Origin: Fragilariopsis cylindrus CCMP1102
Taxonomy: Eukaryota; Bacillariophyta; Bacillariophyceae; Bacillariales; Bacillariaceae
DNA length: 64,000 bases
Assembly: GCA_900095095.1 (NCBI GenBank)
Contig: FMBT01000290.1
Span: 1,054,001 to 1,118,000 of the forward strand
Direction of reading: 5' to 3'
A program made the position numbers and the translations under genes. Shown here one piece after another: positions 18,642-46,352 of this stretch. Each line of letters starts with the position of its first letter. The first letter of the stretch is position 1. The notes under the pieces are model-generated. The model had not been told where the DNA came from. It saw nothing but the letters and a program-made list of their open reading frames with translations, and did not search any database.

Positions 18642-19898
18642 ATGAGCGCGCCTTTCAAAAAGAGAAGAATAGATGATGGCGATGATGGCGGGAGGACCAA
18701 ATCGAAATCGAAATCGAATTATAACAAGCATAATAATAAGCATAGCAACACCAATGATTCAGTAAAAATAACAGCAACTGTTCGCGATCATAACAAAAAC
18801 GACGCTGCTGCTTCCACTCGTTCTGCTTGTTTTCCTAGTAACGAGAAAATTTTACCACAACCACATAAACATTATGGCGATGATGATAAAGGCAGAATTA
18901 TTAGCAACAATAATGACATTCCAAATTCTAGTGTTGCTACTACGGCATCGGCGAAAAATTATGCTGTCGACTACAATCATAATCATCCGTACATGTCGCT
19001 TTATTCTATGTCAATGCCGACGAATGATGATGATGAAATCGTAGGCAAGACTAAAACTTCCATTCAAGAAGAAAAACTTGCTATCGACTACAACCACACC
19101 AATAATAATGAGGATGGTATGAAGAAGAAAAAGAAGAGACGCAGTAACGGCTCAGTTTACCTGGAAGTGTTCAGAAGGCAAGTGGTAGGGCCAGAGACAA
19201 AAGTTGGTAACGGTAAATGCAGCATCAACATCAACACCTACAATGATACCGATAAAGAAGAGGTATATAATAACGAGAAGAAGGACAACCTACAAGCAGA
19301 AACGATGATCGACGACTTCTACTACGATTACAATACCAATGATATTGTTTTAATGAAGAGAAAAAAAAACTACTGCCATAGTGATGAAGGCTGTAAGAGT
19401 GGTACCGTCTGTGATGATGAAGAAGAAGAAGAACATATAATAGAATCTGCATTAGCAGCAACAACAAGCATCAGCAACAGCCCTGCTATACCACTACACC
19501 AAGAAACAAACGATAATGATGAGGATGGCATGAAGAAGAAGAAGAGCAGCACTAACGGCTTTCATAAAAATTCACAAGTTAGTAACGGTAACATCAGCAG
19601 CATCGACACCGGCAATGATAACGATAAAGAAGAAGTACATAATAACAAGAAGAAGGACCACCTACAAGCAGAAATGATGATTGATGATTTTTACTACGAT
19701 AACGAAACCAATGATATTGTTTTAGTAAAGAGAAATAAAACCTACTGCCGTAGTGATGAAGGCTGTAAGTGTGATGTCATCTGTAATGATGAAGAAGAAG
19801 AACAAATAATAGAATCTGCATTAGTAGCAACAACAACAAGCATCAGCAGCAGCCCTGCTATACTGCATACTGCACCAAGAAACAAACATGATAAGTAA
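18642..19898 (+). CDS. Low-complexity protein with HPYxSLYxM motif and internal duplication
   Basis: A 418-residue single-exon protein of unknown function. It opens with a basic segment (FKKRRID, then KSKSKS), compatible with nuclear localisation. The motif HPYMSLYSM starts at H115 (18984-19010) and is shared with two other proteins here. From about residue 155 the protein consists of two tandem copies of a ~125-residue unit: EDGMKKKK, a spacer, NDxDKEEVxNNxKKDxLQAE, MIDDFYYD, TNDIVL, a CxSDEGCK cysteine segment, and an acidic run followed by IIESALxATTSIS. The conserved aromatic/cysteine blocks between variable spacers suggest selection at protein level rather than simple-sequence drift. It could be a chromatin or regulatory protein; that is inference only. 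Confidence 0.75.
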   Translation: MSAPFKKRRIDDGDDGGRTKSKSKSNYNKHNNKHSNTNDSVKITATVRDHNKNDAAASTRSACFPSNEKILPQPHKHYGDDDKGRIISNNNDIPNSSVATTASAKNYAVDYNHNHPYMSLYSMSMPTNDDDEIVGKTKTSIQEEKLAIDYNHTNNNEDGMKKKKKRRSNGSVYLEVFRRQVVGPETKVGNGKCSININTYNDTDKEEVYNNEKKDNLQAETMIDDFYYDYNTNDIVLMKRKKNYCHSDEGCKSGTVCDDEEEEEHIIESALAATTSISNSPAIPLHQETNDNDEDGMKKKKSSTNGFHKNSQVSNGNISSIDTGNDNDKEEVHNNKKKDHLQAEMMIDDFYYDNETNDIVLVKRNKTYCRSDEGCKCDVICNDEEEEQIIESALVATTTSISSSPAILHTAPRNKHDK

Positions 19899-20131
19899 TG
19901 TCAATAATTATAGTATTGATAACTCCAAAAAGAAGCTGGACCAATACCAAGACAAACTGATATGATGATGTATAAGAATGATAACTAAAAAATACTATCC
20001 TCCTGAATTGAGTTCGCACTGTATTTTTCCTTCTATTATACTGTACAACAAATAAAGAATGTAAAGTTAAACTTTTATCTCATTATTTTTTGAATTTTTA
20101 GATAAAATTAATGATTGGATAATAATTAATA
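19899..20131. other. 3' flank, no gene seen
   Basis: AT-rich 3' region of the preceding gene. Confidence 0.4.
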
Positions 20132-20500
20132 GCAATGACAACGAATAAAGACAACACGTCATATTTTTTTTGATTCTCAATTTTAATTAATCAACCCTTG
20201 CCTTTTTTCATCTCACTTTCAATTATTAATCAACTCTTCCGACTAAAAACTTTTCGTAAAATTACGGACAACGACAAATACCCCACTGTAGTAATAAATA
20301 ACTAAAAAGTTTTATTGCAATGACAACGAATAAAGACAACACGGTATATTTTTTCGATTCTCAATTTTAATTAATCAACCCTTGCCATTCATCTCAATTT
20401 CAATTATTAATCAACTCTTCCGACTAAAATCTTTTGTAAAATTACGGACAACGACAAATACCCCACTGTAGTAATAAATAAATAAAAAGTGGGAATAGTA
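20132..20500. repeat. 185-bp tandem duplication
   Basis: GCAATGACAACGAATAAAG starts both copies (20132 and 20317). Both run through TTAATTAATCAACCCTTGCC, CAACTCTTCCGACTAAAA and a final ATACCCCACTGTAGTAATAA. Only a few substitutions and small indels separate them, so the duplication is fairly recent. No coding capacity. Confidence 0.85.
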
Positions 20501-20810
20501 CAGTACATTAACTTACAGTACGTCAAAGTAATATTTATGAAAAAAGTTAATACAGTACTGTTACTGACGCATAATTAATTTAATTCTCTATTGAAAAAAA
20601 AACCTATTAATGTACACTGAGTGTATGTTGTACGTTAGACCTCTCAAGTACAGTAAGAAGATGAAGAAAGGTAAGGTGGACTATTAAATTCCTATGTCAA
20701 AAATCGATAGTTCGCTATATTGGTCTTGTCTGTCTAATAAAGCCCCGCACTTGGCGGCGAAGGTTATTTCGCCGGGGACCGAATATACTTTTAACAACAT
20801 TGCTAAAGAA

Positions 20811-21095
20811 CACAGTTAAACTTGAAAACTATCATTTTTATTATACAGTAGAAGAAGAATGCTCTTCAAATATATATACATAGTGATTCTTGTTGTAGTC
20901 GCGGTGTGGAGACCTCTTGCTTGCGTTTTAAAACAAACAACAAAGAACGGAAACTGATGCATAAAACATTATTACTGTACTAAACAACACAGCACATCAC
21001 GTTAAACTTGAAGCTATCATTATTTTTAATAGATAAGACGAATGATGCTTTCAAATATATATTGAGACCTCTCCTTGCTATGCGTGAAGAAAAAA
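20811..21095. repeat. Diverged ~190-bp direct duplication
   Basis: Two copies offset by about 190 bp share GTTAAACTTGAA, CTATCATT, TTCAAATATATAT and GAGACCTCT..CTTGC words (from about 20815 and 21003). It lies after a 7-bp perfect hairpin CGGCGAA/TTCGCCG at 20755-20774. Function unknown. Confidence 0.55.
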
Positions 21096-21870
21096 CAAGA
21101 ACAGCCAAAACAAACAAGCAGTGTAAAAATGTAAAATACCCTTCCATCGTACAAAATAAAAGTCAGAGCAGAATAAATAGAACGAAAGAAGGAAACGACC
21201 ACCTCTATACAATCATTTCGACGTAACTAATTCTATTACTATTATTATCACGACAATCAAAAGTTTGTTCGACCACAATATAACAAACAAAACAAAAATT
21301 GCAAATCCCTAGTACTGTAGAATTTGAATTGCATCCATTTTTATTCCGAACGAAATCAACCTGCGCTGCTCTGCAAAGTAAGTCAAAGTATCAATATTCG
21401 CGTGGGAAAATGATTCATTCGATTCGATTGATTCTTTCTACTTTTCTTTCCTTTCGTATTGCCTTTTATTGTCATAGATATTATATAGAGGGAAGCAAGT
21501 ATTCGATTCAAGTCAGTTCAATTCAATTCACTTCATTCGTTTTCGCTTTCGCTTTCGCTTTCATCGTACATGCCATTTTCGTTTCTATTCTGGAATCATT
21601 TTTGCTACCTTCTTTTCTTTCTCGTCTTTGTCATTTCATTCGATTCGTTTCGATTCGTTTCGCTTTCATCCTGAATGCCTCTTTTGATTCATTCATTCGT
21701 ACTGGTATCAGTTTCATTTCTGAAAAACTGATTCGATTTATTCTCCCCGACTTTCTGCTTCTGACACTAACTGTTCTCGTGATTCTTTATCTTTTATCTC
21801 AATCTCTTATTTCTCTCTCCCTCTCTTTCAAAATCAAAGCAATTTTTACTACTATTACTATACTACTATT
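21096..21870. other. Upstream region of the polyQ gene
   Basis: Pyrimidine-rich leader with many ATTCGATT, TTTCGCTTTCG and CTCTCTCTCC words, typical of a long 5' untranslated region here. An open frame crosses it (21299-22099) but is composed of these runs and ends inside the real gene, so it is not called. Confidence 0.5.
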
Positions 21871-24800
21871 ATGTCATCAAATCATTATCAACAACAACAT
21901 CAGCAGCAGCAGCTGCGACATCAACAGCAACAACAGCAGCGATATCAACAGCAACATCAACAGCAACATCAACAGCAACACCAACTGCAACAACAGCTGC
22001 AACAACAGCAACAGCAACAAAAACATCAAGGCAATAATAACAGCACCACCACGATTTCTCGTAATTGTCCCCGACCACGTTCTAGTACAAGTTTTATGAA
22101 TCCTTCCCTTAATGGTAGTAGTAGTAGTAATAGTAGAGGATCAACAACTGCTATTAGTACGACAAAAGAATTACAATTATTGAATAAAAGAAGAATGGAA
22201 TTAGAATTACATCTTCAATATACACGCCAGAAACAAAAATTGGAACATCAATTAGAAACGAAACGAAAACAATTTTTGTTACACCAACAACATCAACAAC
22301 ATCAATTGATTGAACAACAAAAACGAAAACAACAGCAGCAACAATCAATAATGCAGCACTATAAGCATTCTCATTCTCATTCTCTTCAACAGCAACAGCA
22401 ACATCAATTGATTGAACAACAGAAACGAAAACAACAGCAACAACAATTAATAATGCAGCAGCACTATAAGCATTCTCATTCTCATTCGTTTCAACAGCAA
22501 CAATCTCAACAGCAACATCAGCAGCAACTATCTCAACAGCAACTCTCTCAACAGCAACAACAACGTTACAATGAAATGAAATTATATCCAAATTCAAATA
22601 CAAAATCATATCCAGGAATACATATACCATCTGTTGTTGCTGCTTTGGCTTCTGCAAAATCATTAGGAGCAAAAGCAATAGCTATGAAGAAGATAGCACC
22701 AACATATACTATTGATGAACAACGTTTGATTAATTCTTCTTCTATTTCTTCTCTAAAAACAGTGATACCAGCAGCAGCGGCATCAGCAGTAGGAACATCA
22801 GCAGGGACATCAAGAATAGAAGTAGCAATAGCAGAAGTAGCGATAGCAGCAAAATTAAAATTGAATTCAAATTACCAACCTATTAACGGCCCACAATCAC
22901 AACCTATTGACGTCATTACTGACGTTGATGCTCAAGGTACTACTGCGAAGAATAATAATGATGATGATACTAGTAATAATTATTATATTGATTATAGCTA
23001 CAATAATAAACCAGTACCGGCACATATGTTAAATATAATTGATACACCTAAACCAAATGATATATTATTTGGGAAAGGTGTTGTTATTATGAGACATTCA
23101 GGGAATAAATTATTTCGTGATTTAATTAAATTACGTGTATCGGATCATGAACGATTATTTCAAGAAAAAGTTATTTCATTAGATGATGAAGCAAAAAAAA
23201 AAAAAAAAAGTCAAATTAGTAGTTCTCGTGATGGTTGTCAGAGAGAAACAGAATCAGAGACAAGTACAGAGACAAGTACAGAGACAAGTACAAATACAAA
23301 TACAGATACAAACTCATCATCGAATACCGGAAGAGGTTATTCAATAAGTCCAGCAACTGGTTTAACAAAAAGAACAAAACGTACCAGTATTGCAACAGGA
23401 ATAGTTTCGGAATTAAAACAAAAATATAAATGTCGGTTTTTAAAACAATATGAGAATGATAATGATGACGATAAATGGATCGAAGTTTCGGATAATGTGG
23501 CACGTTCCAAAGTATGTATTCGTATCCGTGATATACGAAAAAAGAAACCATTATCAATCAAAAATATTATTAAACGAAAAAGAGAAGAAAATGAAATAAT
23601 TACTATTTTAAAAAAACCTAAGTCAATTAACGAATTAAATGTATCAACAACATCGTCACGACCTGTTGAAAAGACAGTAGTATCACAAACTAATTCCTCT
23701 ACCGCTACTGCAACTGCTACTACAGCTGGATCAAGTACTGGTACTGCAGCTGTATCAAGTACTGCTGCTGCTCCTATTGGTTGTAATTATGACAATGCTA
23801 ACAGGAACAACAATAATAATGTCAATGACACCTTCAACGACAACAATAATACAAGTAGTTATAATGCGCTATCATCGGTGGTGCTGCCAACCAATATCAC
23901 CGCAACCACCACCACAGTAAAAGATCCTGCTGCGGTAGTAGCAGCAGCGTATCCTATTACACCTCTACTTAATGATAATTGGGCTGTACCATCACCTAAA
24001 CTTGATTCTGTTTTATCAATCCTACTTTCTACTGCTGAAAACAAGAAAAATACTAATATGAATCCGAATCCTAATATGAATCCTAATATGAAAATGAATA
24101 TGAATATGAATATGGATATCAACGACAGCAAACGACAAAGACGTCTAGACAATGCTGATACTGGTAATATCATATCCCAATATCAAACACCGCAACCACC
24201 ACACGTAGATTGTCATGACAGTAATAAAGTAGGTAACAATGATATGAACGACAACAACGTCGATAACTTGTGCGACCATCACAGGTTTAATAAAGACAAT
24301 GGTACTAATATAAATTCAATTGCTGAATTCAATAAGAAGTACAGTTGTACTACTAATAATGATAGCAATAATGGAGTTACTGCTGCTACTGTAGGACCTC
24401 TCATCAGAAATACTGATGGTGGTTCTTGTGCGATTGCAATGACGATGATGAATACTACCGTGTGTCCGTCATCATTATACAAAATAACAACATCATCTTT
24501 GTTGAATAGTAATAACGCTAATAACGTTTCGTCGAAGGACTCTTTGACGACAACAACTATTAGAGGTAAATTTGCTGCTGGTCCATTTTTAAATGCTACC
24601 AATCTAGAAAAAGTTGGCGAAGCTGACGTCAAAAAAGAAGAAAAAAAACCAGAAGTTGTTCATCCGACAATTGCTCTATCATCATCTCATCATAAAGATA
24701 ATAACAGTAATCAACAACAACAACAACAAAGATTTGATATTGTTGTTGCAAACAATGCTATTCGTGGTGGAAATTACAATAGTGAAGATGATGGTAATGA

Positions 24801-25074
24801 CGAAGATCGTGGTTCCTCCAACGAGTCGTCCAACTCCGAGTCCAACTTTAACTCAGATGATGATTACACGGACAGTAACAACAACAGCAACAACAACGTC
24901 AATAGTAACAGTAACAGTAACATGCAAGAAGAAGGTATTCATTATGACTATCATCATCCGTATGCATCTCTTTATGCTATGGCAACAACAAGTGGTGATG
25001 CATATTTACCTACAACGGAACCTTCTACGGGTACTAGTAATAGTAATAATAGAGAACTACAAGACTATCACTAG
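21871..25074 (+). CDS. PolyQ protein with DUF6824-type domain
   Basis: A 1067-residue single-exon protein. Residues 1-240 are Gln/His-rich with a coiled-coil-like section (LELHLQYTRQKQKLEHQLE). A DUF6824-type domain begins at about residue 391 with PKPNDILFGKG and HSGNKLFRDLI. An insert of ~60 Lys/Ser/Thr residues interrupts it, then it resumes with IVSELKQKYKCRFLK and WIEVSDNVARSKVCIRIRD (to about 555). This diatom-rich family has an N-x-D-x-L-x-G-x-G start and a W-x-E-V-x-D end and is often assumed to be regulatory, without proof. The rest is Asn/Thr/Ser-rich, with a C-terminal acidic region and HPYASLYAM at H1029. A nuclear role is plausible. Single-frame continuity across the polyQ argues that it is a real gene. 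Confidence 0.82.
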   Translation: MSSNHYQQQHQQQQLRHQQQQQQRYQQQHQQQHQQQHQLQQQLQQQQQQQKHQGNNNSTTTISRNCPRPRSSTSFMNPSLNGSSSSNSRGSTTAISTTKELQLLNKRRMELELHLQYTRQKQKLEHQLETKRKQFLLHQQHQQHQLIEQQKRKQQQQQSIMQHYKHSHSHSLQQQQQHQLIEQQKRKQQQQQLIMQQHYKHSHSHSFQQQQSQQQHQQQLSQQQLSQQQQQRYNEMKLYPNSNTKSYPGIHIPSVVAALASAKSLGAKAIAMKKIAPTYTIDEQRLINSSSISSLKTVIPAAAASAVGTSAGTSRIEVAIAEVAIAAKLKLNSNYQPINGPQSQPIDVITDVDAQGTTAKNNNDDDTSNNYYIDYSYNNKPVPAHMLNIIDTPKPNDILFGKGVVIMRHSGNKLFRDLIKLRVSDHERLFQEKVISLDDEAKKKKKSQISSSRDGCQRETESETSTETSTETSTNTNTDTNSSSNTGRGYSISPATGLTKRTKRTSIATGIVSELKQKYKCRFLKQYENDNDDDKWIEVSDNVARSKVCIRIRDIRKKKPLSIKNIIKRKREENEIITILKKPKSINELNVSTTSSRPVEKTVVSQTNSSTATATATTAGSSTGTAAVSSTAAAPIGCNYDNANRNNNNNVNDTFNDNNNTSSYNALSSVVLPTNITATTTTVKDPAAVVAAAYPITPLLNDNWAVPSPKLDSVLSILLSTAENKKNTNMNPNPNMNPNMKMNMNMNMDINDSKRQRRLDNADTGNIISQYQTPQPPHVDCHDSNKVGNNDMNDNNVDNLCDHHRFNKDNGTNINSIAEFNKKYSCTTNNDSNNGVTAATVGPLIRNTDGGSCAIAMTMMNTTVCPSSLYKITTSSLLNSNNANNVSSKDSLTTTTIRGKFAAGPFLNATNLEKVGEADVKKEEKKPEVVHPTIALSSSHHKDNNSNQQQQQQRFDIVVANNAIRGGNYNSEDDGNDEDRGSSNESSNSESNFNSDDDYTDSNNNSNNNVNSNSNSNMQEEGIHYDYHHPYASLYAMATTSGDAYLPTTEPSTGTSNSNNRELQDYH

Positions 25075-26005
25075 TAGTAGTAGAAGAAACAGATGCATAC
25101 AATACAAAACAAACCATCAGAAAAAAGTAGAGAATAATAGGACTGCGACTACTGTGACCGTATAGCTAACTAGATGTGGACTCTGACACGATTGTTGTCG
25201 TGATATATTCTGCGCGAAAAAAAAGAGATCAAAATCTCGTCTCATAATGGTGGGTGTATTTGATCAATAATAAAAGTATCTTCTAGTCTTCAGATCCACC
25301 TAAATCATTTTAGTAATATCTATCTATTACTACTTAAAAGAGCTTTGGTCTTTTGGTTTTTTTTTTAAATTGATTTTTGATGTCGAAACGCTTACGTTCG
25401 TGTACTGGGTTGATTTTCACCTACTTTTTTGAAATAAGCGCAGTCTATCTGGAATGACGCATATCTTTTGATTAAAAAATAAAAGGAGGATGTGGTAAAA
25501 TAAATAATAGATCAACATTTTATATTGACTAATAATATATTGTATTACTGCTGTACTGGATTTTTTTTAAATCACGTGCAAATCAGAATCTCCAATATTA
25601 CATAACTACAAGTCCATGCATTTTTTTTACAGAATTGAATGAACAAGAAGCGCTAATGAAAGACGATAAAGATAGACACATTCACTGATAATACGTGATG
25701 GTTCGGACGTGACCTCCAATTTCCTTAAAGGTGATAGATTCGATTGCTGGATTCATTTATTCGTTACGTAAAGTTCGGAGGTGAACTCCCACACATACAC
25801 AAAGACGCAGTACTACGGATATTTTTGAGAATTGAAGAACGAATCAAAAGTCATAATTTTCTTCATAATAGAAAGTAGATAGGCACCAGGATAAACCGAC
25901 GAGAAGGATCAATATAAGAAGAAGAATAATATCTAATATTAAAAACGAAAACAGAACTGCAATCAATACATATATATATATATATATATATATAAATATA
26001 TCATA
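25075..26005. other. Intergenic, no gene seen
   Basis: AT-rich. The last 150 bp before 26006 are similar to the sequence upstream of the paralogue at 33274 (TTTTCTTCATAATAG, ATTAAAAACGA, ACTGCAATCAATA), so the duplication included promoter and leader. A (TA)n run lies at about 25971-25995. Confidence 0.55.
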
Positions 26006-26617
26006 ATGTCATTTGATCTAAAACCAGAGATACCAATCAGTATCTTGACAAAAAGTGTGGATGACATTGTTTGGACTGTAAGTCGTTCACCTGTACCACC
26101 TTTACTTGCTGGACGCGACATAAGTGAATCGATGTGGGCAAGAACATTTGATATGGTACGAGGACATTATGAGGAACAATTGTCATCCAATAGATCATTA
26201 ATAAAGCCATGGTTTTTTATCCCCTGTTTTGTTCCATGCACAATGGCGAAGATGATACAAATGAACAAAGAACGCCAAAATGGATGGCTTGAGATATTAC
26301 AAAGCCAGAAGGAAATATATCAACGTTTTGGTGTACAAGTTACATTAGCAAGAACTATGAGTTCCAGTAGTGGTAGCAATTCGTCTGGAGGTCAAATGTA
26401 TACAGTTGGACTTCAATTTACCGTTGCTGGTATAGCAGAATCGTCCTACTACTCTCCGTGTAATAATAAGTACGAAGAAAAAAATAATGTTAATATTAGT
26501 ACCAGCACTCAATCATCATCGATTGAAGAACGCCTTGGTAAACTTCGTTCAATTAAACACGTGCTCACAGATCAAGAATACGAAGAAAAAAGGAAAGAAA
26601 TACTTTCACAAATTTAG
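26006..26617 (+). CDS. SHOCT-domain protein with hydrophobic hairpin
   Basis: A 203-residue protein. It begins MSFDLKPEIPI, has a conserved middle (DDIVWTVSRSPVPPLL, ESMWARTFDMV), a short hydrophobic segment rich in Phe/Pro/Cys (about residues 70-86), an LEILQSQKEIYQRFGV stretch and a Ser-rich spacer. It ends in a SHOCT motif (about residues 172-203: IEERLGKLRSIKHVLTDQEY then EKRKEIL). SHOCT domains are short C-terminal helices thought to drive oligomerisation. The intact paralogue of the copy at 33274. Its stop codon is only ~100 bp from that of the convergent oxygenase gene. Function unknown. Confidence 0.8.
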   Translation: MSFDLKPEIPISILTKSVDDIVWTVSRSPVPPLLAGRDISESMWARTFDMVRGHYEEQLSSNRSLIKPWFFIPCFVPCTMAKMIQMNKERQNGWLEILQSQKEIYQRFGVQVTLARTMSSSSGSNSSGGQMYTVGLQFTVAGIAESSYYSPCNNKYEEKNNVNISTSTQSSSIEERLGKLRSIKHVLTDQEYEEKRKEILSQI

Positions 26618-26719
26618 AGATGTGCCGGGTATGAATAATAGCTTTTTTTCTTTCCTTCTTTTACTTTCTAATTGGTATAGCATGTTTCAGATTAAATCTC
26701 TATCTATATTATAGTTAGC

Positions 26720-28846
26720 TTATTCTATTCTACCTCTACAAAATTTCCATAGTCGATATGCATCATTATCATTATCATTTATATGTACTGATACTATTGA
26801 TTCTAATATGATTGTTGCATCCTTATATCTATCTTCATTTGCTAAGAATAAACCATAATTTAATGATAACGAATACAAATCATTATTTATTTTTACACCC
26901 GAATCTTTCGAACGTTCTAATATGTTTATACCATGTTTGTATGCAATTTCACGTTGTTGATTACGTCGTGTAGTATTGTCAATATCATTATTATCAAAGT
27001 CAATGTCAATGACGTCATTCATTTTACCTAATAGGATACCTATATTATTATATATACGTGAATCACATGGTGTTACTAATTTGGATATTTGATAACAATT
27101 GAATGCTACCTCATATATAACTTTTATTTGTTGTAGCACATTTGTGTCATTGTCATCATTGCTATTATTGTCATCATTATTGTCTTGACGACCATGATAC
27201 AAATAATCAGCATATTCCATAAGTACTGTACCAAGATATTGTATAGCTTCTCCATCATATGATAATGATTGATGCGTTGTTGATTGAATTAATGATGAAT
27301 ATTCAACCGCTAATTTTAAATGTAATATACGACATATTAATACATCATATGGAGAATTGTTTTCTTGTTGTTCACAAAATGAACGACAAGTTTTAAGTCT
27401 TGCTGATGCTATTTCAGATGGTGGTGTAATATGTATTTCTAACGAATCAGTATCAGTATTAGTATCAGTATCAAAAGTCGACTGTTGTACTAATGGGCTA
27501 GTATACAACTCATCAATCATAGTATTAGATTTAGATTTAGATTGTGTTTCTGTTTCTACTGTTTCTGCTGTTGCTGCTGATATAAAAAGAACTAATATGT
27601 CACGTACACCATGAATTGTTCCTGCACCAGCATGACGTTCGGATGCGGAATGTGCTAGACAATATCCAATACCATTTGGTTTCATTGGTTCTATCATTGA
27701 TTCTATTGATTGTTTTGTTGACGTTGGCGTTGACGCAGATAATTGATCTTCAAAGAATGTACCACCACCATTAAATTCATTATTCGAATTTAACATAATA
27801 TTAATAGAAACTAATCCTAAATCACGATGAAATGGTTGTCCTGCACCACCAATAGAAGCACCTGATGATGCATCAGCTTGCGCAGCAGCTGTTGCGTTAT
27901 AACGAATAACTAATGCATCATAAACAAATAATTTTATATCTGTATCATTATTATTAGTATGAGTATTTTTAATAAAGAATGCATCACGTATCATAGGATA
28001 CATTTTTGTTTGTAATGCAATATTTAATGCTAGTATAGCTTTTTTACCAGCAGTACTACTAGTATCAAAATCAAATACATGCGCTTCTGAATTTTCTTTA
28101 TATTGATATGTAAATTTGGACGATGATGAAGTTGAAGATGATAAATCTTCATCATTATTATTGTTGTTGCTTTCTTGTTCTTCTTTGTCCCATATCTCTT
28201 CTGCTGCTTTTCGTATAGCTTGTACAGAATCAATATCAAGTATTGGTCCTGTTGATTTTATTGCAAGAATACTAGTAGGTGGACGACGAGGACTACTATT
28301 ATTATGATGAAAAATTTGTTGTTGTTGTTGTTGTTGTTCAATTGGATGAGGAATAGTTTCATAAGAACAAGAAAGAACCGATGAGGATGATGAGGATGAT
28401 GATGATGAGGATGATGATGAAAACGATTCTTCGTTATTTTCTATTTCTAAACCTGATAATTTTGCTGTATTGTAATCATCTAAATGTTGATTCTGTATTC
28501 GTTCAAGTATTATACTATTTGTTTTGGTTGATAAAGACGACGACGATGGTTTATTATTCAACAATAAGATATTACTATCAATATATTCTAATATTTCAGC
28601 TACTCTTTCTTCTATTGTTATTACTGTGTCTGTTGATTCAGTTGTTGATGGTGACGTAATTATAGCCGCCGCCGCCGCCACCGAAGCTGCTGCTCCTATT
28701 GGTTTATTACTAGCATTATTTTTGATTGTATTGATTGTAGACGACGACGAAAAGGCCGTTATACTAACAATATAAGTAGTAGTAGACATTATTGTCATCA
28801 TCATCATGGTCATCATCATTATTATTATCCGCAAGAAAGACGACAT
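26720..28846 (-). CDS. 2-oxoglutarate/Fe(II) dioxygenase-like protein, probably plastid-targeted
   Basis: A 708-residue single-exon protein. The N-terminus is a hydrophobic signal peptide ending in ITA-F, matching the diatom plastid A-F cleavage pattern, then a Ser/Ala-rich transit-like region. The core has the HxD iron motif (H340, D342 in FHRDLG), a GGGTFFED turn, a distal histidine (H405 in RHAGAG) and R415 ten residues later for 2-oxoglutarate, as in prolyl 4-hydroxylase-type oxygenases. The C-terminal ~250 residues look alpha-helical and repeat-like (LGTVLMEYADYLYHG, NIGILLGK, LNYGLFLANEDRYKDA), resembling TPR repeats. Asp/Asn runs interrupt the protein. A protein or small-molecule hydroxylase is likely; the substrate is unknown. 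Confidence 0.75.
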   Translation of the reverse strand: MSSFLRIIIMMMTMMMMTIMSTTTYIVSITAFSSSSTINTIKNNASNKPIGAAASVAAAAAIITSPSTTESTDTVITIEERVAEILEYIDSNILLLNNKPSSSSLSTKTNSIILERIQNQHLDDYNTAKLSGLEIENNEESFSSSSSSSSSSSSSSVLSCSYETIPHPIEQQQQQQQIFHHNNSSPRRPPTSILAIKSTGPILDIDSVQAIRKAAEEIWDKEEQESNNNNNDEDLSSSTSSSSKFTYQYKENSEAHVFDFDTSSTAGKKAILALNIALQTKMYPMIRDAFFIKNTHTNNNDTDIKLFVYDALVIRYNATAAAQADASSGASIGGAGQPFHRDLGLVSINIMLNSNNEFNGGGTFFEDQLSASTPTSTKQSIESMIEPMKPNGIGYCLAHSASERHAGAGTIHGVRDILVLFISAATAETVETETQSKSKSNTMIDELYTSPLVQQSTFDTDTNTDTDSLEIHITPPSEIASARLKTCRSFCEQQENNSPYDVLICRILHLKLAVEYSSLIQSTTHQSLSYDGEAIQYLGTVLMEYADYLYHGRQDNNDDNNSNDDNDTNVLQQIKVIYEVAFNCYQISKLVTPCDSRIYNNIGILLGKMNDVIDIDFDNNDIDNTTRRNQQREIAYKHGINILERSKDSGVKINNDLYSLSLNYGLFLANEDRYKDATIILESIVSVHINDNDNDAYRLWKFCRGRIE

Positions 28847-37740: not shown

Positions 37741-37929
37741 GGTAGTGTAGTCGAAGGTGAGAACAAGGAAGAAGATCCTCGACTGTCGTCGATCTCAGCT
37801 GAAAATTCTCCAAAATATGATGACGAGGGCAACGACGATGGCAATAAAGATGGCAACGACGACGGCATTGACGACGATGACGACGACGACGACGGTGACT
37901 ACTTTCATGACGATGACGAGGATCAGTAA
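37741..37929 (+). other. In-frame acidic extension after the WW-gene amber codon
   Basis: After TAG 37738-37740, the same frame stays open for 62 codons to TAA 37927. It encodes VVEGENKEEDPRLSSISAEN followed by an Asp/Gly-rich tail ending HDDDEDQ. Such an acidic tail is a normal protein end in this genome, suggesting a recent nonsense change, stop-codon readthrough or a sequencing error. Confidence 0.55.
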
Positions 37930-38353
37930 CTGAACAAGATAAAAATAGGTGATGACTATCTTGCATTTCTTGCCATCTGTCTCTCGTACATACAAACAGA
38001 CTACAATGAATTACTGTATAAATACAGTGATACCGTATAATAGCATACCGTCCCACCGTATACTACAACTGCGGTATTGTACTATGCAATTAGAAAAAGA
38101 TATAGATTGTTTTAAATTAATATTAAAAAAAATCATATATATTCAAGGTCTCTGTTAGTAGGCTATTTAAATTCTGTTTCTTTTCTATTCGAGACCTTAG
38201 TCAAAATCGAATAAATTTTATTCTCTCGGCGTATTATACTGTAGTGTCGGCATGACCATAGTTATACTAGAATAAGTTGTTGTAAACCGAACATATGACA
38301 GTATCAGCATGCTTCACGTGGTACAGTACTCCGTATTAATTGCATACAATACC
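37930..38353. other. Intergenic, no gene seen
   Basis: Short AT-rich spacer between convergent genes. Confidence 0.4.
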
Positions 38354-38387
38354 GGGGGGGGGGGGGGGAATGGCGGGGGGGGGGGGG
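38354..38387 (+). repeat. Paired G homopolymers (15 and 13 G)
   Basis: G15 (38354-38368), a short AATGGC spacer, then G13 (38375-38387), about 20 bp beyond the 3' end of the next minus-strand gene. On the transcript side this is a C-run; on the plus strand it could form a quadruplex. Its length is also a typical assembly weak point. Confidence 0.9.
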
Positions 38388-38406
38388 AATGAGTTATAGG
38401 TATGAT

Positions 38407-41133
38407 TCATTCGATTCCGTTTAACAATTCCGTTGGATCGACACCAAGTTGTGCCGCGTGATTTTTTAACACTAACAAGGAACGGGCAAGATCAAGATCA
38501 ATAGCAAGAGCAAGATCAACATCAGCATATCTTGATTCAATTTTCGTTTCCTTCCTAGCGAATGTTCTTTCTTTGCTAAAACCACTCTCGTTGTGCTCTG
38601 AGAACGAAGGCGATACTATGTGCGATATGCACGGACTATAGGCGATATCGTCGTATTCATATTTATCAACATCGCCGTAGTTATTGTCCTCCTCCAAAGT
38701 AGAATCATCAGAAGAACTTGAACTTAAACTTGAACTTGAATTTGATATGTCACTGTCACTGCCAACCATTCGTAAATCTCTTACATCTATTACTTTCTTT
38801 GTACCGAAACCAAAAACGCTTCCAAATTCGGACATTATACCAATGTTGGGCATAGTACCGATGATCGTGTCACTGTACTTGGGACCATAGATTACATCTC
38901 CGTTGTCGTCATCGTATTTTTGGTGCAAATCTTCGTGGTACTGTTCCAATTCTTTTCTGTCGATATAATCTGTAGAGTCGTCGTCGGTAACATATGATAC
39001 ACTTTGTGGAATACCCTTTGATTTGCTCTTAGACCAAGGATACATAATTTTGCTTAGAAATCCCTTATTCTTGTAGCTATCTTCGCTACGCAATACCGAA
39101 TCATCGCTATCACTACCACTTCTACTGTCGCTAACATCGGATTCGGATTCTGAGCTGCACAAACTAACACTATAGGAGCTATCTTCATCATTGTTTGAGC
39201 ATTTATTGGTAGTACTAACAGGAACAAAACACGTTGCAAGGGCCGCTGCAGTAGCTGCGTCTTCAAGGGCGTCCATAGCAGCAACAGCAGCAGCATTCTT
39301 CTCTTGTTCTTTCTTGTTGGCAGTACTAACAGGAACAACACTCGTTGCAAGGGCCGCTGCAGTAGCTGCGTCTTGAAGGGCGTCCATATCAGCAGCACCA
39401 GCAGCACCAGCAGCATTCTTCTCTTGTTCTTTCTTGTTGGCAGTACTCACAGGAACAACACTCGTTGCAAGGGCCGCTGCAGAAGCTGCGTTTTCAAGGG
39501 CGTTTATATAAGTAGCAGCAGCAGTATTCTTCTTTTGTTCTTTCTTGCTGTGCAACTTCTTTTTTTTAGATCCATTCTTCTTCTCGTTTTTCTTTTCTAA
39601 CTTTTTTTTTCGTTCCTTCCTCCTGTTTATCTTATCGATTGTCGGCACCTGCTGTTTATTCTTGTTATTCCCACGGAAACTCATCAATCTTCTTATACTA
39701 GGTGGTGGTGGTGGTGGTGGTGGTGGTGGTGCATCCCTTTCAACAATACCTTCTGCAGCAACAGCTTCATCGTCGTTTGTTGTAATCAATTGTCTCATTT
39801 CAGTTTCTCCAAGCTCCTTTACCTCGACATATTTTTTGTCATTGATAGGTATGGATGTTGTTGTTGGTACATCGTCGCACTCACTATTGTTGTTGGTAAA
39901 ACATCCGAGAGAACTTCCGATTTCTGAGATGGTATTCAAATGCTTTAACCGTGATGTTGCTGTAGATGAACATGTCATCGTTGGTGACGAACCGGTTGGA
40001 ATAATATGAATACCCATACTATCTTCTACCGAGGCTTGACATCCTTCTGTTACTACCTCGTCAACTGCATTGCTGTCGAAATCACCACATAACTGTGACG
40101 TAAAGATTGTTTCTAAGATCGTTGGTTCGTTGTTGTTGCACTTGGATACCGAAATCATTGTCTTGTTTTTCTTTGCGGTTACATCGGTTACTGCGGTTAC
40201 TGCTGCTGCTGCTGCTGCTGGTGGTGGTGGTACTGCTACTTCTGTAACTACCTCGTCAAATGCAATGCTGTCAAAATTACCACATAACTGTGACGTATAG
40301 ATTGTTTCTAAGATCGCTGGTTCGTTTTTTTTGCACTTGGATACCGATATCATTGTCTTGTTGTTCTTTGCGGTTACTGCGGTTACTGCTGCTGCTGCTG
40401 ATTTTTCGTCCGCTGTTTGCTCTTGGTTGCTTGGCGACGAAGACGACGGTGATGAACGTGTTCTTTTCTTTACTCTCTGTTTATATAAAGTCTTACTAAT
40501 AAGAATGCGAGTAAATGGTTGATCATTCTCGTTCTTCATTGCGACCAATTCAACGCGTTCGGCATAGTGTTTCTCCTCCGACTTCTTTGTCGACTTCTTT
40601 TTCTTTTTGCCATTAGTAGTAGCAGTAGTGGTTAGAGGTAAGGATTTCTTCTTTATCATCATCAATCTATGAAGCGGAGACAACGAAAAAACCCGATGTG
40701 ACTTAGTGCCGTTTTTACCTTCCTTCGTCGTAATTCCTTCTTTGATTTTTGTCTTGTTATGCTCTATCGATGCTACCTGCTGTTTGTGGTTGTTATTCCC
40801 ACGGAAACTCGTCATTCTTCTTATACTAGGTGTTGTTGGTGGTGGTGCATCCCTTCTAACATTGCCTTCTGCAGCAACATCACATTCTTCTCGAACATCA
40901 ACACAACCAACGCCACCGCCAGCATAAAAAGAAACGGAAGACTTTTGGGCTTGGCTATTGTTGCTGTCGTGACTTTTATTATAAGTATCTTTTGTGGAAA
41001 AAGATGTTAATGTTGCTATATTCGATCCGGCTACGGATTTCGATCTCATAGTTCTATTTGAATTAATACGCTCCTTCTTGGTTGCACCAAGCGTCGACTT
41101 GCGTGTCTTAACTTTTCCTGTCGGTCTCGCCAT
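38407..41133 (-). CDS. Large basic repeat protein, function unknown
   Basis: A 908-residue single-exon protein. The N-terminus is basic (KVKTRKST). Three sets of internal repeats are visible: (1) two copies of RDAPPP..PSIRRxxSFRGNN, a basic RRxxSF site after a Pro-run; (2) two copies of NKTMISVSKC..EPxILETIxTSQLCGxFDS..DEVVTE; (3) three ~40-residue Ala-rich copies of NALxxAAxAAALATSxVPVSTANKK-type sequence. After Lys-rich runs comes a more complex C-terminal third: a Ser/Asp region, FLSKIMYPW, and a final helix VDLALAIDLDLARSLLVLKN followed by HAAQLGVDP. No known domain was recognised. Basic and acidic blocks and an RxxS site suggest a regulated nuclear or cytoskeletal protein, as inference. 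Confidence 0.72.
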   Translation of the reverse strand: MARPTGKVKTRKSTLGATKKERINSNRTMRSKSVAGSNIATLTSFSTKDTYNKSHDSNNSQAQKSSVSFYAGGGVGCVDVREECDVAAEGNVRRDAPPPTTPSIRRMTSFRGNNNHKQQVASIEHNKTKIKEGITTKEGKNGTKSHRVFSLSPLHRLMMIKKKSLPLTTTATTNGKKKKKSTKKSEEKHYAERVELVAMKNENDQPFTRILISKTLYKQRVKKRTRSSPSSSSPSNQEQTADEKSAAAAVTAVTAKNNKTMISVSKCKKNEPAILETIYTSQLCGNFDSIAFDEVVTEVAVPPPPAAAAAAVTAVTDVTAKKNKTMISVSKCNNNEPTILETIFTSQLCGDFDSNAVDEVVTEGCQASVEDSMGIHIIPTGSSPTMTCSSTATSRLKHLNTISEIGSSLGCFTNNNSECDDVPTTTSIPINDKKYVEVKELGETEMRQLITTNDDEAVAAEGIVERDAPPPPPPPPPPSIRRLMSFRGNNKNKQQVPTIDKINRRKERKKKLEKKNEKKNGSKKKKLHSKKEQKKNTAAATYINALENAASAAALATSVVPVSTANKKEQEKNAAGAAGAADMDALQDAATAAALATSVVPVSTANKKEQEKNAAAVAAMDALEDAATAAALATCFVPVSTTNKCSNNDEDSSYSVSLCSSESESDVSDSRSGSDSDDSVLRSEDSYKNKGFLSKIMYPWSKSKSKGIPQSVSYVTDDDSTDYIDRKELEQYHEDLHQKYDDDNGDVIYGPKYSDTIIGTMPNIGIMSEFGSVFGFGTKKVIDVRDLRMVGSDSDISNSSSSLSSSSSDDSTLEEDNNYGDVDKYEYDDIAYSPCISHIVSPSFSEHNESGFSKERTFARKETKIESRYADVDLALAIDLDLARSLLVLKNHAAQLGVDPTELLNGIE

Positions 41134-43378
41134 GATGGGGATAAGGAGGATGGTACTATTTCTATCGTTTTGGACATGAACTTTTGTACAACAAACTAAA
41201 GAGACAAAGAACGTTACTCAAGAGCTAGTAGACCTTACTTTGTTGACTGAATAAATAGTATTATTAATCGATGATCCTGTAATAATGCGGCGAACAAAAA
41301 AGAATGTGGCGAACAAAAAAGGATAGATTATGTAATAGTAAATACCGGTATCTGTGTATTAACATCGGCAAAGCGTTGATTTTCTTTCAACGGAAGACTA
41401 ACGCGCATGTAATTTTGATTAAAAACCGCGAGAATTTTCTTTTCGTGCACTTATTTTGTGAGTGTATCAGTTTCAACGTAACGAAGAAGAAGAATCTTCA
41501 TCTCGTCGTCCTATTTGAATTAATCGATAAAACAATTAAATGAGGTATATCTCTAACTAAGCTGGGTTGAAGTTTTGTAACAGGAAGGAAACGTATCAGA
41601 AGACTTAATCACGGACAGAAGCAATATTCCGGCGACTTGAATGTTTTTATCAGAGAACCCACCAAGCACAGTCAATATGAGTGTTTTACAACCTGGATCT
41701 GCTCCTTATCTCTTGGATGGAATGTATCAGTCTGTGCTGGGTGAAATGAGTTACCCTAGTAGCGTTCTCTTAATTCTATTATTTTCTTATTCACAGTGTC
41801 ATCATGCTGATTTATATGACTGGTCCACTTGTGTCTTTTTATTGTGTAGCCACAAAGACTGGGTCTTGTAATTTGCTAGCACATGGGGATGGTCAACACA
41901 ACATATGCTATTTTATTGTTGTTGGTGTGCATCATTTGAGAGAAGTGATTCACTGTCATCCCATCAACATATCTTCTTCTTCTTCCTTGAACGAGCTACT
42001 ATATCAGCATAATATACAACATTTTATCTGTGCAGCACAGTCATGGACTACATGCATTCTTTGTCCGAAGAATACTGGCTAGCTGGCTGGCTGAGAATTT
42101 AGTACAATGGCAGTACCCCTAGATTTTCCTATTATAAAGACACCTATATTTAATGGAGCTATGGAAAAATAGCTCAATTGTACTATATTATATCTCTAAT
42201 TAGCTGGTACTAGCTGGCACTAAGGAGGATGGTATGATAATAATGATATGGATATTTTATTTAACTTCTCCAGGCAAGTAATTGATTGGTCTATTTAAGT
42301 CTAGTTCTCTTTATTGCTAAAAGGATTGCAAGGTTGTCTAATATTGGACATCCCTGTGTTCTTCATCTCTTCCCATTTGTTCTCACTTTTCTATGATTGT
42401 CTAATATTCAACATCCATAAAACTTCTTCTCTTTTCTTTCAATTTTCTAGGGGGATGGTATAATAGATAGATGTGTCTCATTTATTGCATGTAGTACAGT
42501 TGGAGGTATGACTAACAGACACAGGACTCACCACAGACACATTTGAGTCACTACTTACATTAGCCAACAGCATAATTCTGCAGCGTAGCATGCTTTGAGT
42601 CTAACCAAAGGGTGTAATTTCTACAGGAAAAGGATGACAATATAATATGTAACAGAAAATAACACACACCTCCAACTGTTAGATATATATATATATAATT
42701 AATCAACCAGATCTCTTTTACTTTTAGAGAATGTTGAAATTATAGTATTATTAGTATGAATAGAAATCTAAATTTATACTATAAACTTGTTGTTTTGTTT
42801 GTTTTGGCTGGGTGGGTGCACATGATGGTGATGCAGTAGGATGTTCTGTGTTGCTGTAGAAATTTATGTCCAACAGAAGCCAAAGGAATGATAATAGTAC
42901 TGGTAGTATTGTCTATCTGTCTTATTGGGTATGCTATGATAGTTACTGTACTGGGATAGAAAGGGTGCAGAGAGCAGCAGGTCTAAGTAACATAGCAGCA
43001 CAGATTGATTCAACTGGGTAATATCACCTTATCCCCAAACCCCCTAATCATTGAAACCTTACGGGGAGTCGAGTCATAAATAAGTAGTATCAATGTACAG
43101 TGTATTGATCTTGTTACTATAATGTCTGAGGTCATTTGAAGGGCTATTATATTTTCATTCTTGCCAGTTACAGTGCTATTATATTTTCAATCTTGCTGCC
43201 CTTCGCTTCCGCCTTCGTTCACAACAAAAATCTCGAATTCTTTTCCGAAAGATATAAAGTTCAGTAATTATACATAGTACTTGTATAATGGATAGAGATT
43301 AGATCGAATCGAACCCATACTTCAATATAATAACAAACCAACAGACCCAACAACCGAACGAACAAACAAACAAACAAG
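41134..43378. other. Gene-poor region (2.2 kb)
   Basis: No credible gene. Open frames at 41641-42082 are short and unrecognised; a degenerate element is possible. CTGGCTAGCTGGC words at about 42078 and a (TA)n run at about 42685 are the only obvious repeats. Confidence 0.4.
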
Positions 43379-44359
43379 ATGTTGACCATGTTCTTTATCC
43401 AACGTTTGCAATTTATGGTAGCAGTAGCAGCTATCAGTATCTGCTTGTCTTCTTTGTCATCATCATCATCATCATCAGCACAATCGCCATCATCTCCGTC
43501 GTCGTTTTTTGTTTCTTCGTTACAGGAACAACAGATAAAGACATGTGACGATTTATCTATTGGATCCTATTTTTTTATTAATATAAATGCATGGCCAACT
43601 GTCATTGATGTTGGATATGGAACAAAAGCAAATAATACACATCATGGTGAAATTATATTATTTGGTTTTGAAGATATACCAGGTGGAATAGATTTATTTC
43701 TAACTGATAAACCATGGTCAACATTGACAAATAAATTTATTAATGAAGATGTAGTAGGAGAAGGAATATTAAAATTAACAACACCATTACCAGTAGGTAT
43801 TCCTGCTGGAATACCGTTCGGTATAGGAAATGGTTTAGATAATGATTGGAATTGGATTGATTATAAAGTAAATGGTATGAATAATATGAATACGACAAAT
43901 ACAACAAATACTACTAGTACTACTAATAATAGTTACTATTTTGATTTAGGATACGATGGTGATCAAATATTCTTATATTGTATTGATTCAAATGGGAATG
44001 ATCGTCCACTAACTGGTATTTCTTATAATGGTCCATTCATTAGTACTACTACTAGTAACTTCATTGAATTTGGAACCAATACAAGTTCTGCACCAGATTA
44101 TTTATTAAATAATACAATTAATAATAATAATACTGGTACATTAGTAATGCCTAGTAGTACAACTTATTTGAACTGGCAATATATTGGTCCAATGACAGGG
44201 TTAAATTTTCATGAATTACGAGCAGCAATTCAAGATACAACTAATAATTGGATTGGAACAAATCCTGATGGAACAACATCATCATCAGTATCAACAACAA
44301 CAACAATGTCAGTTTTGATAATGACAATGATGACGGTAATGATGACGATCATGATATAA
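43379..44359 (+). CDS. Secreted, probably GPI-anchored surface protein
   Basis: A 326-residue protein with a strong signal peptide (about residues 1-30, then Ser-rich). The ectodomain runs from about residue 55: GEIILFGFEDIPGGIDLFLT, then EGILKLTTPLPVGIPAGIPF, YYFDLGYDGDQIFLYCID and LTGISYNGPF. This order (extended strand, FTDKxW-like turn, xGDQIFxY) resembles a beta-rich extracellular domain found in bacterial secreted proteins and some algae, but I cannot name it with certainty. Asn/Thr runs interrupt it. The C-terminus is a Ser/Thr spacer and a hydrophobic end, as in GPI signals. It converges on the AP2 gene. Confidence 0.7.
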   Translation: MLTMFFIQRLQFMVAVAAISICLSSLSSSSSSSAQSPSSPSSFFVSSLQEQQIKTCDDLSIGSYFFININAWPTVIDVGYGTKANNTHHGEIILFGFEDIPGGIDLFLTDKPWSTLTNKFINEDVVGEGILKLTTPLPVGIPAGIPFGIGNGLDNDWNWIDYKVNGMNNMNTTNTTNTTSTTNNSYYFDLGYDGDQIFLYCIDSNGNDRPLTGISYNGPFISTTTSNFIEFGTNTSSAPDYLLNNTINNNNTGTLVMPSSTTYLNWQYIGPMTGLNFHELRAAIQDTTNNWIGTNPDGTTSSSVSTTTTMSVLIMTMMTVMMTIMI

Positions 44360-44461
44360 GAGCCATACATGTATTTCAACTGAAAGTTATATATTAATCG
44401 GTGTCGTAAGAGATGTTCGTATGCATTATATTCATTTATAGTATCTGTACTTTATATTCAT

Positions 44462-44548
44462 TCATTTTCTAATTAGACCCGCTTCTACCAAGCGTCGGAT
44501 GATATCCTCTTTATTTCCACCCTGTAATAGATTACGTCGACGCGTCAT
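44462..44548 (-). other. Alternative-frame basic/SAP-like tail overlapping the AP2 stop
   Basis: In the frame one base on from the AP2 frame, ATG 44548 to TGA 44462 encodes 28 residues: a basic MTRRRN start and LLQGGNKEDIIRRLVEAGLI. The second part resembles the second helix of a SAP DNA-binding motif (GxKxELIxRL). A single-base shift before the AP2 stop would append it, so it may be the original C-terminus. Confidence 0.4.
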
Positions 44549-46352
44549 CCTTTTCTTCCCCTTTATTGCTATTATTATCGTTACTATCAATTTCCATTAA
44601 CGCGTCGTGATAATCTTCTACATCACTCGCATCCCCATCATCATCCGCATTGGCACCCGGATCATTGTCGACCCACGAAGAAGGATGACTGTTGTTACCA
44701 GATGGATCAGTAATCAAGGTGGCCATCGTCGCTATTGATTCGCCATACAAAGTTTGTGTTTGTGTTTGTGTTTTTGTCTGTGTTTGTGGTGGTAGGATCA
44801 TCCCGTATAAAGATAGATGTGATGCCGTTGTCGGATCAACACCATTTTTGATCATGTCCAATATTCGACGTTCATATGGTGATTGTCCAACAACCTCACG
44901 TGCAATTTCTCTACATATAAGTGTTCTTTTACTAGATTGCCCATCAGGACCATCAGTGTCAATGCCATCCTCTAGTAATGTTGTACTACTAATTGATGCA
45001 CGATGTTTATCACAGTCACAATCTTTATCATAATCACAATCTTTATCATCATCAATAGTACTTTTTCGTTTCTTATGATTCACGACGGCATTTCCACCAC
45101 TACTTAAATTACTAGATGAACCGGATGTTGTTGTTGTTGTTGGTGATGATCCATTTTCTTTATAATTCGTTTTTGCTATGTTGTGATTATTATTACTATT
45201 ATTATTTAGTATCATCGTCAATGTTGGGTTGAATGATCGCATTTCCCTTGACCTGTTGTTGTTGTTGTTGTTGTTGTTGTTAGAAGACGACGACGATGAC
45301 GGCAACAATTGTTGTTGTAGAGCTTCGACTTTCCTTTTCGCTACTTTAAACGCCAAAGCGGCATCACGTTCATCTTTGAATGTACCGATATTTCTCTTCT
45401 TGCCTTTAAATCTCAACATTGCCTCAAAAGTTCCTGACGGTGTTTTGCGGTATCCCTTTGGTTGTCTTCGGCCTAGAACACCTTCGTTGTTGTCATCATC
45501 ATCAGCATAATCATCGCTATTGTCATCAATACAATTATCGACGGTGTTTTCATTTTCAATGATAGCTTTAACTTCGGAACGGATCAATTTCCATTCCTTA
45601 TCACTACGTTGTAATATTGGTGGAACTTGGACCCTCCTCTTCGCTATTTCATACGCCAAAGCGGCATCACGTGCATATTTGAATGTACCGATATTTCTAC
45701 TCTTGCCTTTAAATTTTATCTGCGCCTCATAATTTCCTGAACGATTTTTGATGTATCCCTTCGGTTGTGTTTTTCGGCCTTGGACGTTATCATCATTGTC
45801 ATCATCATCATCATCATCATCATCGCCATCGTCGTCATCATTACTGTCATCATTATAATTATTATTACCACTGTTTCTCTTGTTCCTGTTCTTACTGGCT
45901 CTGCTGACAGAAGCCCTAATTTCTGAGCGGATCGATATCCATTCCTTATCGATTTTTACATTTTCGTTTCTGTTAATACTATTACTACTATTACTAGCAG
46001 CCTTAATTTTTTGCTGCTGCTGCTGCTGCTGCTGCTGAGGCGCCGATGGTAGATTGTTGTTACCAGACGGATTAGTAATCGGGGTAATGGCCATCGTCGT
46101 TACTGTAGTAATGACGGGAGTTGTTATTTCGCTATACAAAGTTTGTGTCTGTGGTTGTGGTTGTGTTGGTAGGATCATCCCGTATAAAGATAGATATGGG
46201 TGTTCTTCTTCTTCTTCTTCCCCATTATTATTGCTATTGCTATTGTTATTGCTATTGTTATTGTTATTGTTGTCATCGTTATTGTTATTGTTACTATTAT
46301 TAGTGAAGGATCTCCTCACCGCTTGGAACAGATTCTTAGCAGCAGACATCAT
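44532..46352 (-). CDS. Double AP2-domain transcription factor
   Basis: The open frame extends to 46514, but the upstream part lies in the LTR and has no homology; the first ATG outside it (46352, MMSAAKNLF) is chosen, giving 606 residues. Two AP2 domains occupy about residues 187-237 and 291-338. Each has the KGYxKNxSGxxEAxIxFKGKxRNIGTF and DAALAxxxAKRxV pattern of AP2/ERF DNA-binding folds. HPYLSLYGM lies at H51, and a second copy (SHLSLYGM) lies near the C-terminus (44799-44824). Asn, Asp and Gln runs fill the rest. Stramenopile AP2 proteins are putative transcription regulators. The copia 5' LTR begins 137 bp upstream of the start codon and could alter expression. A 28-codon alternative-frame tail overlaps the stop. 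Confidence 0.87.
   Translation of the reverse strand: MMSAAKNLFQAVRRSFTNNSNNNNNDDNNNNNNSNNNSNSNNNGEEEEEEHPYLSLYGMILPTQPQPQTQTLYSEITTPVITTVTTMAITPITNPSGNNNLPSAPQQQQQQQQQKIKAASNSSNSINRNENVKIDKEWISIRSEIRASVSRASKNRNKRNSGNNNYNDDSNDDDDGDDDDDDDDDNDDNVQGRKTQPKGYIKNRSGNYEAQIKFKGKSRNIGTFKYARDAALAYEIAKRRVQVPPILQRSDKEWKLIRSEVKAIIENENTVDNCIDDNSDDYADDDDNNEGVLGRRQPKGYRKTPSGTFEAMLRFKGKKRNIGTFKDERDAALAFKVAKRKVEALQQQLLPSSSSSSNNNNNNNNNRSREMRSFNPTLTMILNNNSNNNHNIAKTNYKENGSSPTTTTTSGSSSNLSSGGNAVVNHKKRKSTIDDDKDCDYDKDCDCDKHRASISSTTLLEDGIDTDGPDGQSSKRTLICREIAREVVGQSPYERRILDMIKNGVDPTTASHLSLYGMILPPQTQTKTQTQTQTLYGESIATMATLITDPSGNNSHPSSWVDNDPGANADDDGDASDVEDYHDALMEIDSNDNNSNKGEEKDDAST

Follow-up and report, generated by a model that had tools for sequence, protein, structure and literature searches.

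The heptapeptide H-[P/D]-Y-x-S-L-Y recurs across the genome of the diatom Fragilariopsis cylindrus in proteins of otherwise unrelated families, namely those with HA, AP2-like, HSF and DUF6824 domains. Three of its copies lie in the 64,000-nucleotide stretch analysed here (the window), a part of contig C91. Judged from its sequence and recurrence, it is probably a lineage-restricted short linear docking motif by which these regulators recruit one co-regulator. The original prediction, made on the window, had proposed HPYxSLYxM as a docking motif of regulatory proteins. Genome-wide recurrence and the presence of regulators among the carriers upheld this proposal in part, whereas the core had to be changed to H[PD]YxSLY, the carriers proved few within each family, and the copies were not all independent.

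Recurrence of the motif and its carrier genes

HPYxSLY matched the six frames of the window at three places only, exactly where the copies had been predicted and all within long open reading frames (418, 1067 and 660 residues). A fourth, truncated copy predicted in the AP2-like gene is present (SLYGM at 44799-44813 on the minus strand, with SHL just ahead), but it is not independent because it is part of an intragenic DNA duplication (44764-44821 versus 46141-46198, 88% identity). The genome searched comprised 67.9 Mb in 818 contigs. Gene models were unspliced frames, and copies were judged real by eye from the frame and its surroundings. Near-identical contig pairs (e.g. C155/C648 and C500/C512), taken for two haplotypes because of their equal matches and spacings, were merged in gene counts. 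The strict form HPYxxLYxM was found at seven places, compared with none for the reversed pattern, which is more than chance would give; six of the seven lay in or beside frames with HA, AP2-like, HSF or DUF6824 domains.

The relaxed form HPYx[S]LY gave 32 places, against 16 for the reversed control and 8 with the codon order reversed. Nineteen of them, corresponding to about 15 genes, were judged real. These include a copy on C78 with Cys at position 5, one on C264 counted for its 21-mer identical to that of C108 and not from a reading of the locus, and one at C160:445 with a broken upstream frame but an open near-copy on C515. The remaining 13 carried a stop, Phe, Thr or Arg at core residues or had stops nearby in frame; four of these (C299, C439, C488 and C679) were counted without reading in context, and C91:851509, whose frame has no stop over at least 59 codons, could be coding. 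Met-9, which belonged to the core as first described, was ruled out as a core residue by its absence from 12 of the 19 HPY copies judged real, while the H, Y, S, L, Y part was kept.

Asp was accepted at position 2 because HDYx[S]LY gave 17 places compared with 4 in the control. Twelve of the 17 read HDY[M/L/I/Q]SLY, representing about eight genes of which hardly any was read in context, and four were noise; in this tally the C679 place is outside the listed sequences, and one of the 12 good reads comes from the HxYx[S]LYxM search. The latter pattern gave 22 places (control, 4), comprising 7 HPY, 7 HDY and 8 with neither. With any residue at position 2, H-x-Y-x-S-L-Y occurred at 135 places compared with 113 in the control and is therefore little enriched as a whole. 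Among the 100 of these 135 places listed, position 2 was Pro 18, Tyr 16 and Asp 8 times (3.2, 5.1 and 2.9 expected from base composition), or 18, 7 and 7 times when a true Leu and no stop were required. His and Gln occurred six times each (2.9 expected), and the Tyr, His and Gln places were counted out of context; some of them may be true variants. The core is thus best written, from these sequences, as H-[P/D]-Y-x-S-L-Y with an optional Met-9. One-base variants of the nine-residue pattern were found at 11 further places (control, 5) and rejected, each having an internal stop or a frame of at most 69 codons; for this reason the motif appears sharply defined. That it is a chance product of low-complexity coding sequence is extremely improbable and already disfavoured by the controls: the 13 discounted HPY places do look like noise and come near the control counts, but the strict and HDY forms far exceed their controls and the same four domain families recur.

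The 15 HPY carrier genes comprised five HA, three plus one AP2-like, two DUF6824 and one HSF gene, and three with no recognised domain. HA proteins, which the original prediction had not named, are the largest carrier group. At C524 and C38 their domain is in the motif's frame; at C108 and C160 the frame is the same but a stop intervenes, and at C78 the domain lies upstream in other frames; owing to these stops and frame changes, three of the five HA links assume introns. AP2-like domains share the frame of the motif in the window and on C613, stand at an in-frame distance with about 330 unread bases between on C147, and are assigned on C160/C515 by N-terminal similarity only. The HSF domain of C265 and the DUF6824 domain of the window gene are in frame with the motif, and at C195 DUF6824 shares the frame but follows 1.2 kb downstream, with intervening stops. 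The carriers with no assigned domain are P0001 (a window protein), C91:243814 and C80. For C80, no Pfam or NCBIfam family scored over its cut-off, and a single-sequence model with a predicted local distance difference test (pLDDT) score of 37.6 was too poor for fold assignment. By eye, the C-terminal part of this carrier (L102, C80:385500-386900) resembles a cysteine protease, and the part read holds no AP2-like domain.

As for the HDY carriers, C512 holds a 627-residue open reading frame with the motif in frame with DUF6824, and an HA match follows 0.8 kb after DUF6824; in its near-copy C500 the motif is out of frame. At C155 and its pair C648 the motif lies 1.1-1.2 kb upstream of an HA match, and the distance is a multiple of three; at C340 it lies 0.9 kb upstream of one, and the distance is not such a multiple. 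At C464 it lies about 1 kb after an HSF-like match with stops. Places on C44, C81 and two on C155 are in the count with no carrier domain assigned.

The motif positions fell outside the HA, AP2-like, HSF and DUF6824 domains, as had been predicted. The expected spread over regulator families held for AP2-like, HSF and DUF6824 proteins but not for bZIP and Myb, no such domain being found in the scanned carriers, some of which were read only in part. In 18 other long window frames there was no HSF, HA or DUF6824 match at E≤0.001, a test that would miss the AP2-like domains of this genome. The genome contains 128 HSF matches and at least 150 DUF6824 matches (150 of 319 candidates scored), and motif carriers are few within these large families. 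Searched with a 15-row alignment, the two public collections scanned (genome contigs and viral contigs) yielded no DUF6824 relatives. Within the genome, DUF6824 appears, from equal frame lengths, to lie in the same open frame as HSF at C513, C343, C300/C337 and C155/C648, and as HA at C500. These domains therefore form a shuffling network, and the co-occurrence suggests that DUF6824 may act in DNA binding or transcription.

Conservation around the core and copying between genes

Conservation was compared in four HA paralogues (C524, C108, C160 and C38), all from one genome and all found by the motif. Over the 12 residues from the motif start, HPYMSLY[ATS]P[VL][QR][LMF], 56 of 72 pairwise comparisons were identical, compared with 5/72 (7%) for the 12 residues before and 11/72 (15%) for the 12 after. 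Identity of the seven core residues is partly due to the construction of the search; in the five residues after the core, which were free in the search, it was 14/30 (47%). The seven core codons showed 11 pairwise differences, all silent. In these motif-selected paralogues the core and the next five residues were thus kept better than the flanks. A subfamily of HA proteins (L096, L097, L098 and L099/L103) has in common S[SN]VLRS[DN][PT]NK.LSGWVKRQ, and in L096 and L098 the motif is followed by another conserved block, DHGVY.IVG.DGEFE.VVE.Y.QYH.

A wider set of 18 copies was assembled without C264 (never read) and without C515 and C512 (near-copies of C160:445 and C500). For a 15-copy alignment, both C613 copies and C160:445 were also left out. 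Across this alignment H, Y, L and Y do not vary and P and S hardly vary, which is due in part to how the search was built; the alignment matched no PDB sequence at E≤10. The 18 copies represent 13 distinct 21-mers and are therefore mostly not fresh DNA copies, and 7 of the 13 have Met at position 4, which the search did not constrain. The ten residues upstream have a negative net charge in 17 of the 18 copies, and by composition the motif looks to lie mostly in acidic, disordered stretches. Codon differences among the copies (175 synonymous, 24 non-synonymous) were not taken as selection because the copies were picked by their amino acids; they show only that not all are recent DNA copies.

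Flanks were also compared at the DNA level over up to 300 bp, or only about 150 bp for several loci, at E≤1e-3. The window DUF6824 gene and the C78 locus have 102 bp in common at 80% identity, both near the end of the frame. For the gene on C80 and the AP2-like gene on C147, the common stretch around the motif is 81 bp at 93%. Given these two cross-family pairs, part of the spread was DNA copying, and the copies are not all independent. For the HSF, P0001, C91:243814 and HA genes, the alignment between loci is confined to 21-37 bp with the motif at the centre, and these carriers are therefore old or independent enough to have kept the motif alone. The genes are clustered as well: the three window copies lie within 27 kb, and on C155 a 29-kb stretch holds three HDY places (4123, 7710 and 32981). 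Shared stretches of this kind, the intragenic copies in AP2-like genes and the clusters would all be expected if the motif rode on small DNA cassettes copied between near and distant genes and was kept without function, hitchhiking in fast-evolving disordered regions. We consider this explanation unlikely in view of the 21-37 bp alignments with their varied synonymous codons, of the HA paralogues that kept the motif while the flanks were lost, and of the HDY variant, which retains the other core residues (partly by construction of the search).

Known motifs and a possible docking function

Y-x-S-L-Y fits Phi-x-x-Phi-Phi, given as a generic recurring form of transcription factor:coregulator motifs such as those of p53 and ACTR with NCBD (PMC7948954), in 18 of 18 copies. 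The generic motifs are far looser, whereas the diatom motif adds recurring His, Pro/Asp and Ser. Docking, the helix, the partner and the effect are what we infer from this pattern. A short helix would fold on binding, with Tyr3, Leu6 and Tyr7 (i, i+3, i+4) as its hydrophobic face. Position 2 would cap it, Pro and Asp both being well suited to the first turn of a helix; the small Ser5 would permit packing, and the acidic flank would add long-range attraction. The helix would fill a hydrophobic cleft of one common co-regulator, and regulators with different DNA specificity would thereby recruit the same machinery. Candidate partners are alpha-alpha-hub domains, e.g. PAH1 of Sin3.

The SAP25-type (type II) ligand of Sin3 PAH1 is listed as S-Phi-X-S-Phi-Phi-X-Phi, where S is a short side chain (PMC7948954, Table 1). 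The Met-9 form can be superposed on it through its positions 2-9, [P/D]-Y-x-S-L-Y-x-M, with Ser5 (once Cys) as the short residue. Only eight of the 18 copies fit, provided that Pro/Asp count as short residues at the first place, and a Pro, Ser, Glu or Thr at position 9 prevents the fit; the background was 7 matches in 6906 residues of ten window open reading frames, one of them itself a carrier. In organisation, the best parallel appears to be the RCD1 interactome, described as one motif in unrelated transcription factors bound by one alpha-alpha-hub and traced to land plants (PMC6908617). There, (D/E)X(1,2)(Y/F)X(1,4)(D/E)L is bound by RCD1-RST in NAC, DREB2, bZIP and BBX proteins (PMC7948954, PMC6908617). 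In both systems, transcription factors of unrelated families carry in their disordered regions an aromatic/Leu motif accompanied by acidic residues, but the RCD1-RST motif has an acidic residue before Leu where the diatom motif has Ser. Membership was not borne out, with 0 of 18 copies matching the RST-binding form of PMC7948954 Table 1 and 1 of 18 the regular expression printed in PMC6908617. The REST, RST, both TAFH and the PAH2 type II forms of the same Table 1 matched 0 of 18 copies. No paper was found for the motif strings or DUF6824 in the main texts of open-licence literature, and literature on diatom motifs, HSF/AP2/HA, transactivation and Sin3 held nothing on this motif among the matches listed.

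The EAR repression motif LxLxL and the LxxLL co-activator motif are short motifs common to unrelated transcription factors, a distribution similar to that of the diatom carriers, and each matched over the core in 0 of 18 copies. The motif could also be part of a generic acidic transactivation stretch that has no dedicated partner but binds loosely to surfaces of Mediator or of the CBP type. The acidic upstream residues, the Phi-x-x-Phi-Phi core and the DNA-binding carriers would suit such a stretch, but generic activation domains are degenerate, whereas the aligned copies all keep H, Y, L and Y and nearly all keep P and S (partly by construction), and one-base variants of the nine-residue form were not found in long frames; this explanation is decidedly unlikely. 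Very improbable is a degradation or trafficking signal, e.g. an E3 ligase degron or an Atg8-interacting motif, the latter being [W/F/Y]xx[L/I/V] after acidic residues and very degenerate. All 18 copies match the bare Atg8 core with YxSL, which follows acidic residues in 17 of 18, yet so degenerate a core leaves His1, Pro/Asp2, Ser5 and Tyr7 unexplained, and the identified carriers are DNA-binding-type proteins.

Several points weigh against the docking motif as the explanation. The class match to Phi-x-x-Phi-Phi is weak because that form is common, with 206 occurrences in the same 6906 residues. The AP2-like copies and the two cross-family pairs are related by DNA, and codons 8-12 of the HA paralogues show 16 residue-changing compared with 5 silent pairwise differences. 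Among about 23 carrier genes, at least 8 lack a recognised domain or were only partly read, and the domain links at C78, C108, C160 and C195 cross stops or frames and presuppose introns. Most members of the families seem to be without the motif: around the best 30 DUF6824 and best 30 HSF matches, with 1.5 kb read on each side, the relaxed patterns occurred only at the C500/C512 pair. The His-less form PYx[S]LYxM gave 12 places compared with 9 in the control, 7 of the 12 already known, so there was no enrichment beyond the known copies.

If the docking reading holds, the occurrence of one motif in HSF, AP2-like, HA and DUF6824 proteins would suggest that they share a co-regulator, and it would link DUF6824 and HA proteins to the control of transcription. 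It would also be a case of a docking motif apparently moving between unrelated genes as a small DNA piece. Diatoms have a strongly expanded HSF family, reportedly as the only group of photosynthetic stramenopiles to do so (PMC4827209). A broader and more tentative proposal, possible but doubtful, is that the expanded sets of HSF, AP2-like, HA and DUF6824 regulators in diatoms are all connected to one co-regulator by a docking code specific to the lineage, new genes joining through a copied 80-100 bp motif cassette inserted into their disordered parts.

Features of the window

The features located in the window, together with the genomic motif places, are collected in Table 1.

Table 1 Positions of motif copies and carrier features (window coordinates unless a contig is named).
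Feature	Position	Strand	Evidence
Motif copy 1, HPYMSLYSM	18984..19010	+	six-frame pattern search; translation of long open frame
Motif copy 2, HPYASLYAM	24955..24981	+	pattern search; translation; stop codon 30 residues later
Motif copy 3, HPYLSLYGM	46176..46202	-	pattern search; translation; after six-Glu run
Duplicated DNA with truncated fourth copy (LSLYGMILP)	44764..44821	-	88% identical to 46141-46198
Shared 102-bp stretch around copy 2	24913..25014	+	80% identical to DNA beside C78 HA domains; -42 to +60 from motif start
418-residue protein P0001, basic N-terminus, internally duplicated acidic segment	18642..19898	+	open reading frame; translation; no Pfam domain at E≤0.1
1067-residue polyQ/N-rich protein with DUF6824	21871..25074	+	open reading frame; translation; PF20710 E 1.3e-11
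Best DUF6824 stretch, residues 500-554	23368..23532	+	Pfam search
AP2-like protein, two AP2-like domains	44532..46352	-	start at likely ATG 46352
AP2-like domain, first copy	45606..45794	-	alignment; DNA repeat
AP2-like domain, second copy	45303..45491	-	four-copy alignment; model pLDDT 81.8; Foldseek top match TEM1 AP2
Motif peptide of the C108 HA gene	C108		QQQEHPYMSLYAPVQM
HPY places judged real (19)	C38, C78, C80, C91 x4, C108, C147, C160 x2, C195 x2, C264, C265, C515, C524, C613 x2		

The AP2-like gene is listed as an open reading frame of 660 residues that extends to 46514 and opens with GTG; the ATG at 46352 is the likely start because the N-terminus MMSAA.NLFQAV is common to the paralogues. 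Its designation as a double-AP2 protein agreed with the model, in which strands 14-16, 22-28 and 31-38 and helix 41-62 were predicted, the three-strand sheet plus helix of the AP2 fold. The similarity to TEM1 AP2 (Foldseek probability 1.00, E 0.016) was weak in sequence (phmmer E 0.03), and there was no fold match at E≤0.001 and no Pfam AP2 match. Residues 525-560 (window 44835-44942, minus strand) matched ribosomal protein L36e in Pfam at 35.2 bits (cut-off 27), and this fragment ends about 14 bases ahead of the duplicated truncated motif copy. The gene appears to be a mosaic of inserted pieces; a thiol-cytolysin Pfam match was under its cut-off. Internal duplication is a feature of the AP2-like genes: in the window gene the two AP2-like domains are 303 bp apart, and the C613 paralogue (L006) has two identical motif copies with a spacing of 117 bp.

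In P0001, which belongs to no Pfam family, MIDDFYYD is found inside both copies of the acidic segment. An RVT_2 reverse transcriptase frame (48816-52040, plus strand) lies near the AP2-like gene, and an aspartyl protease extends over two frames (3742-7203, minus strand), probably split by an intron.

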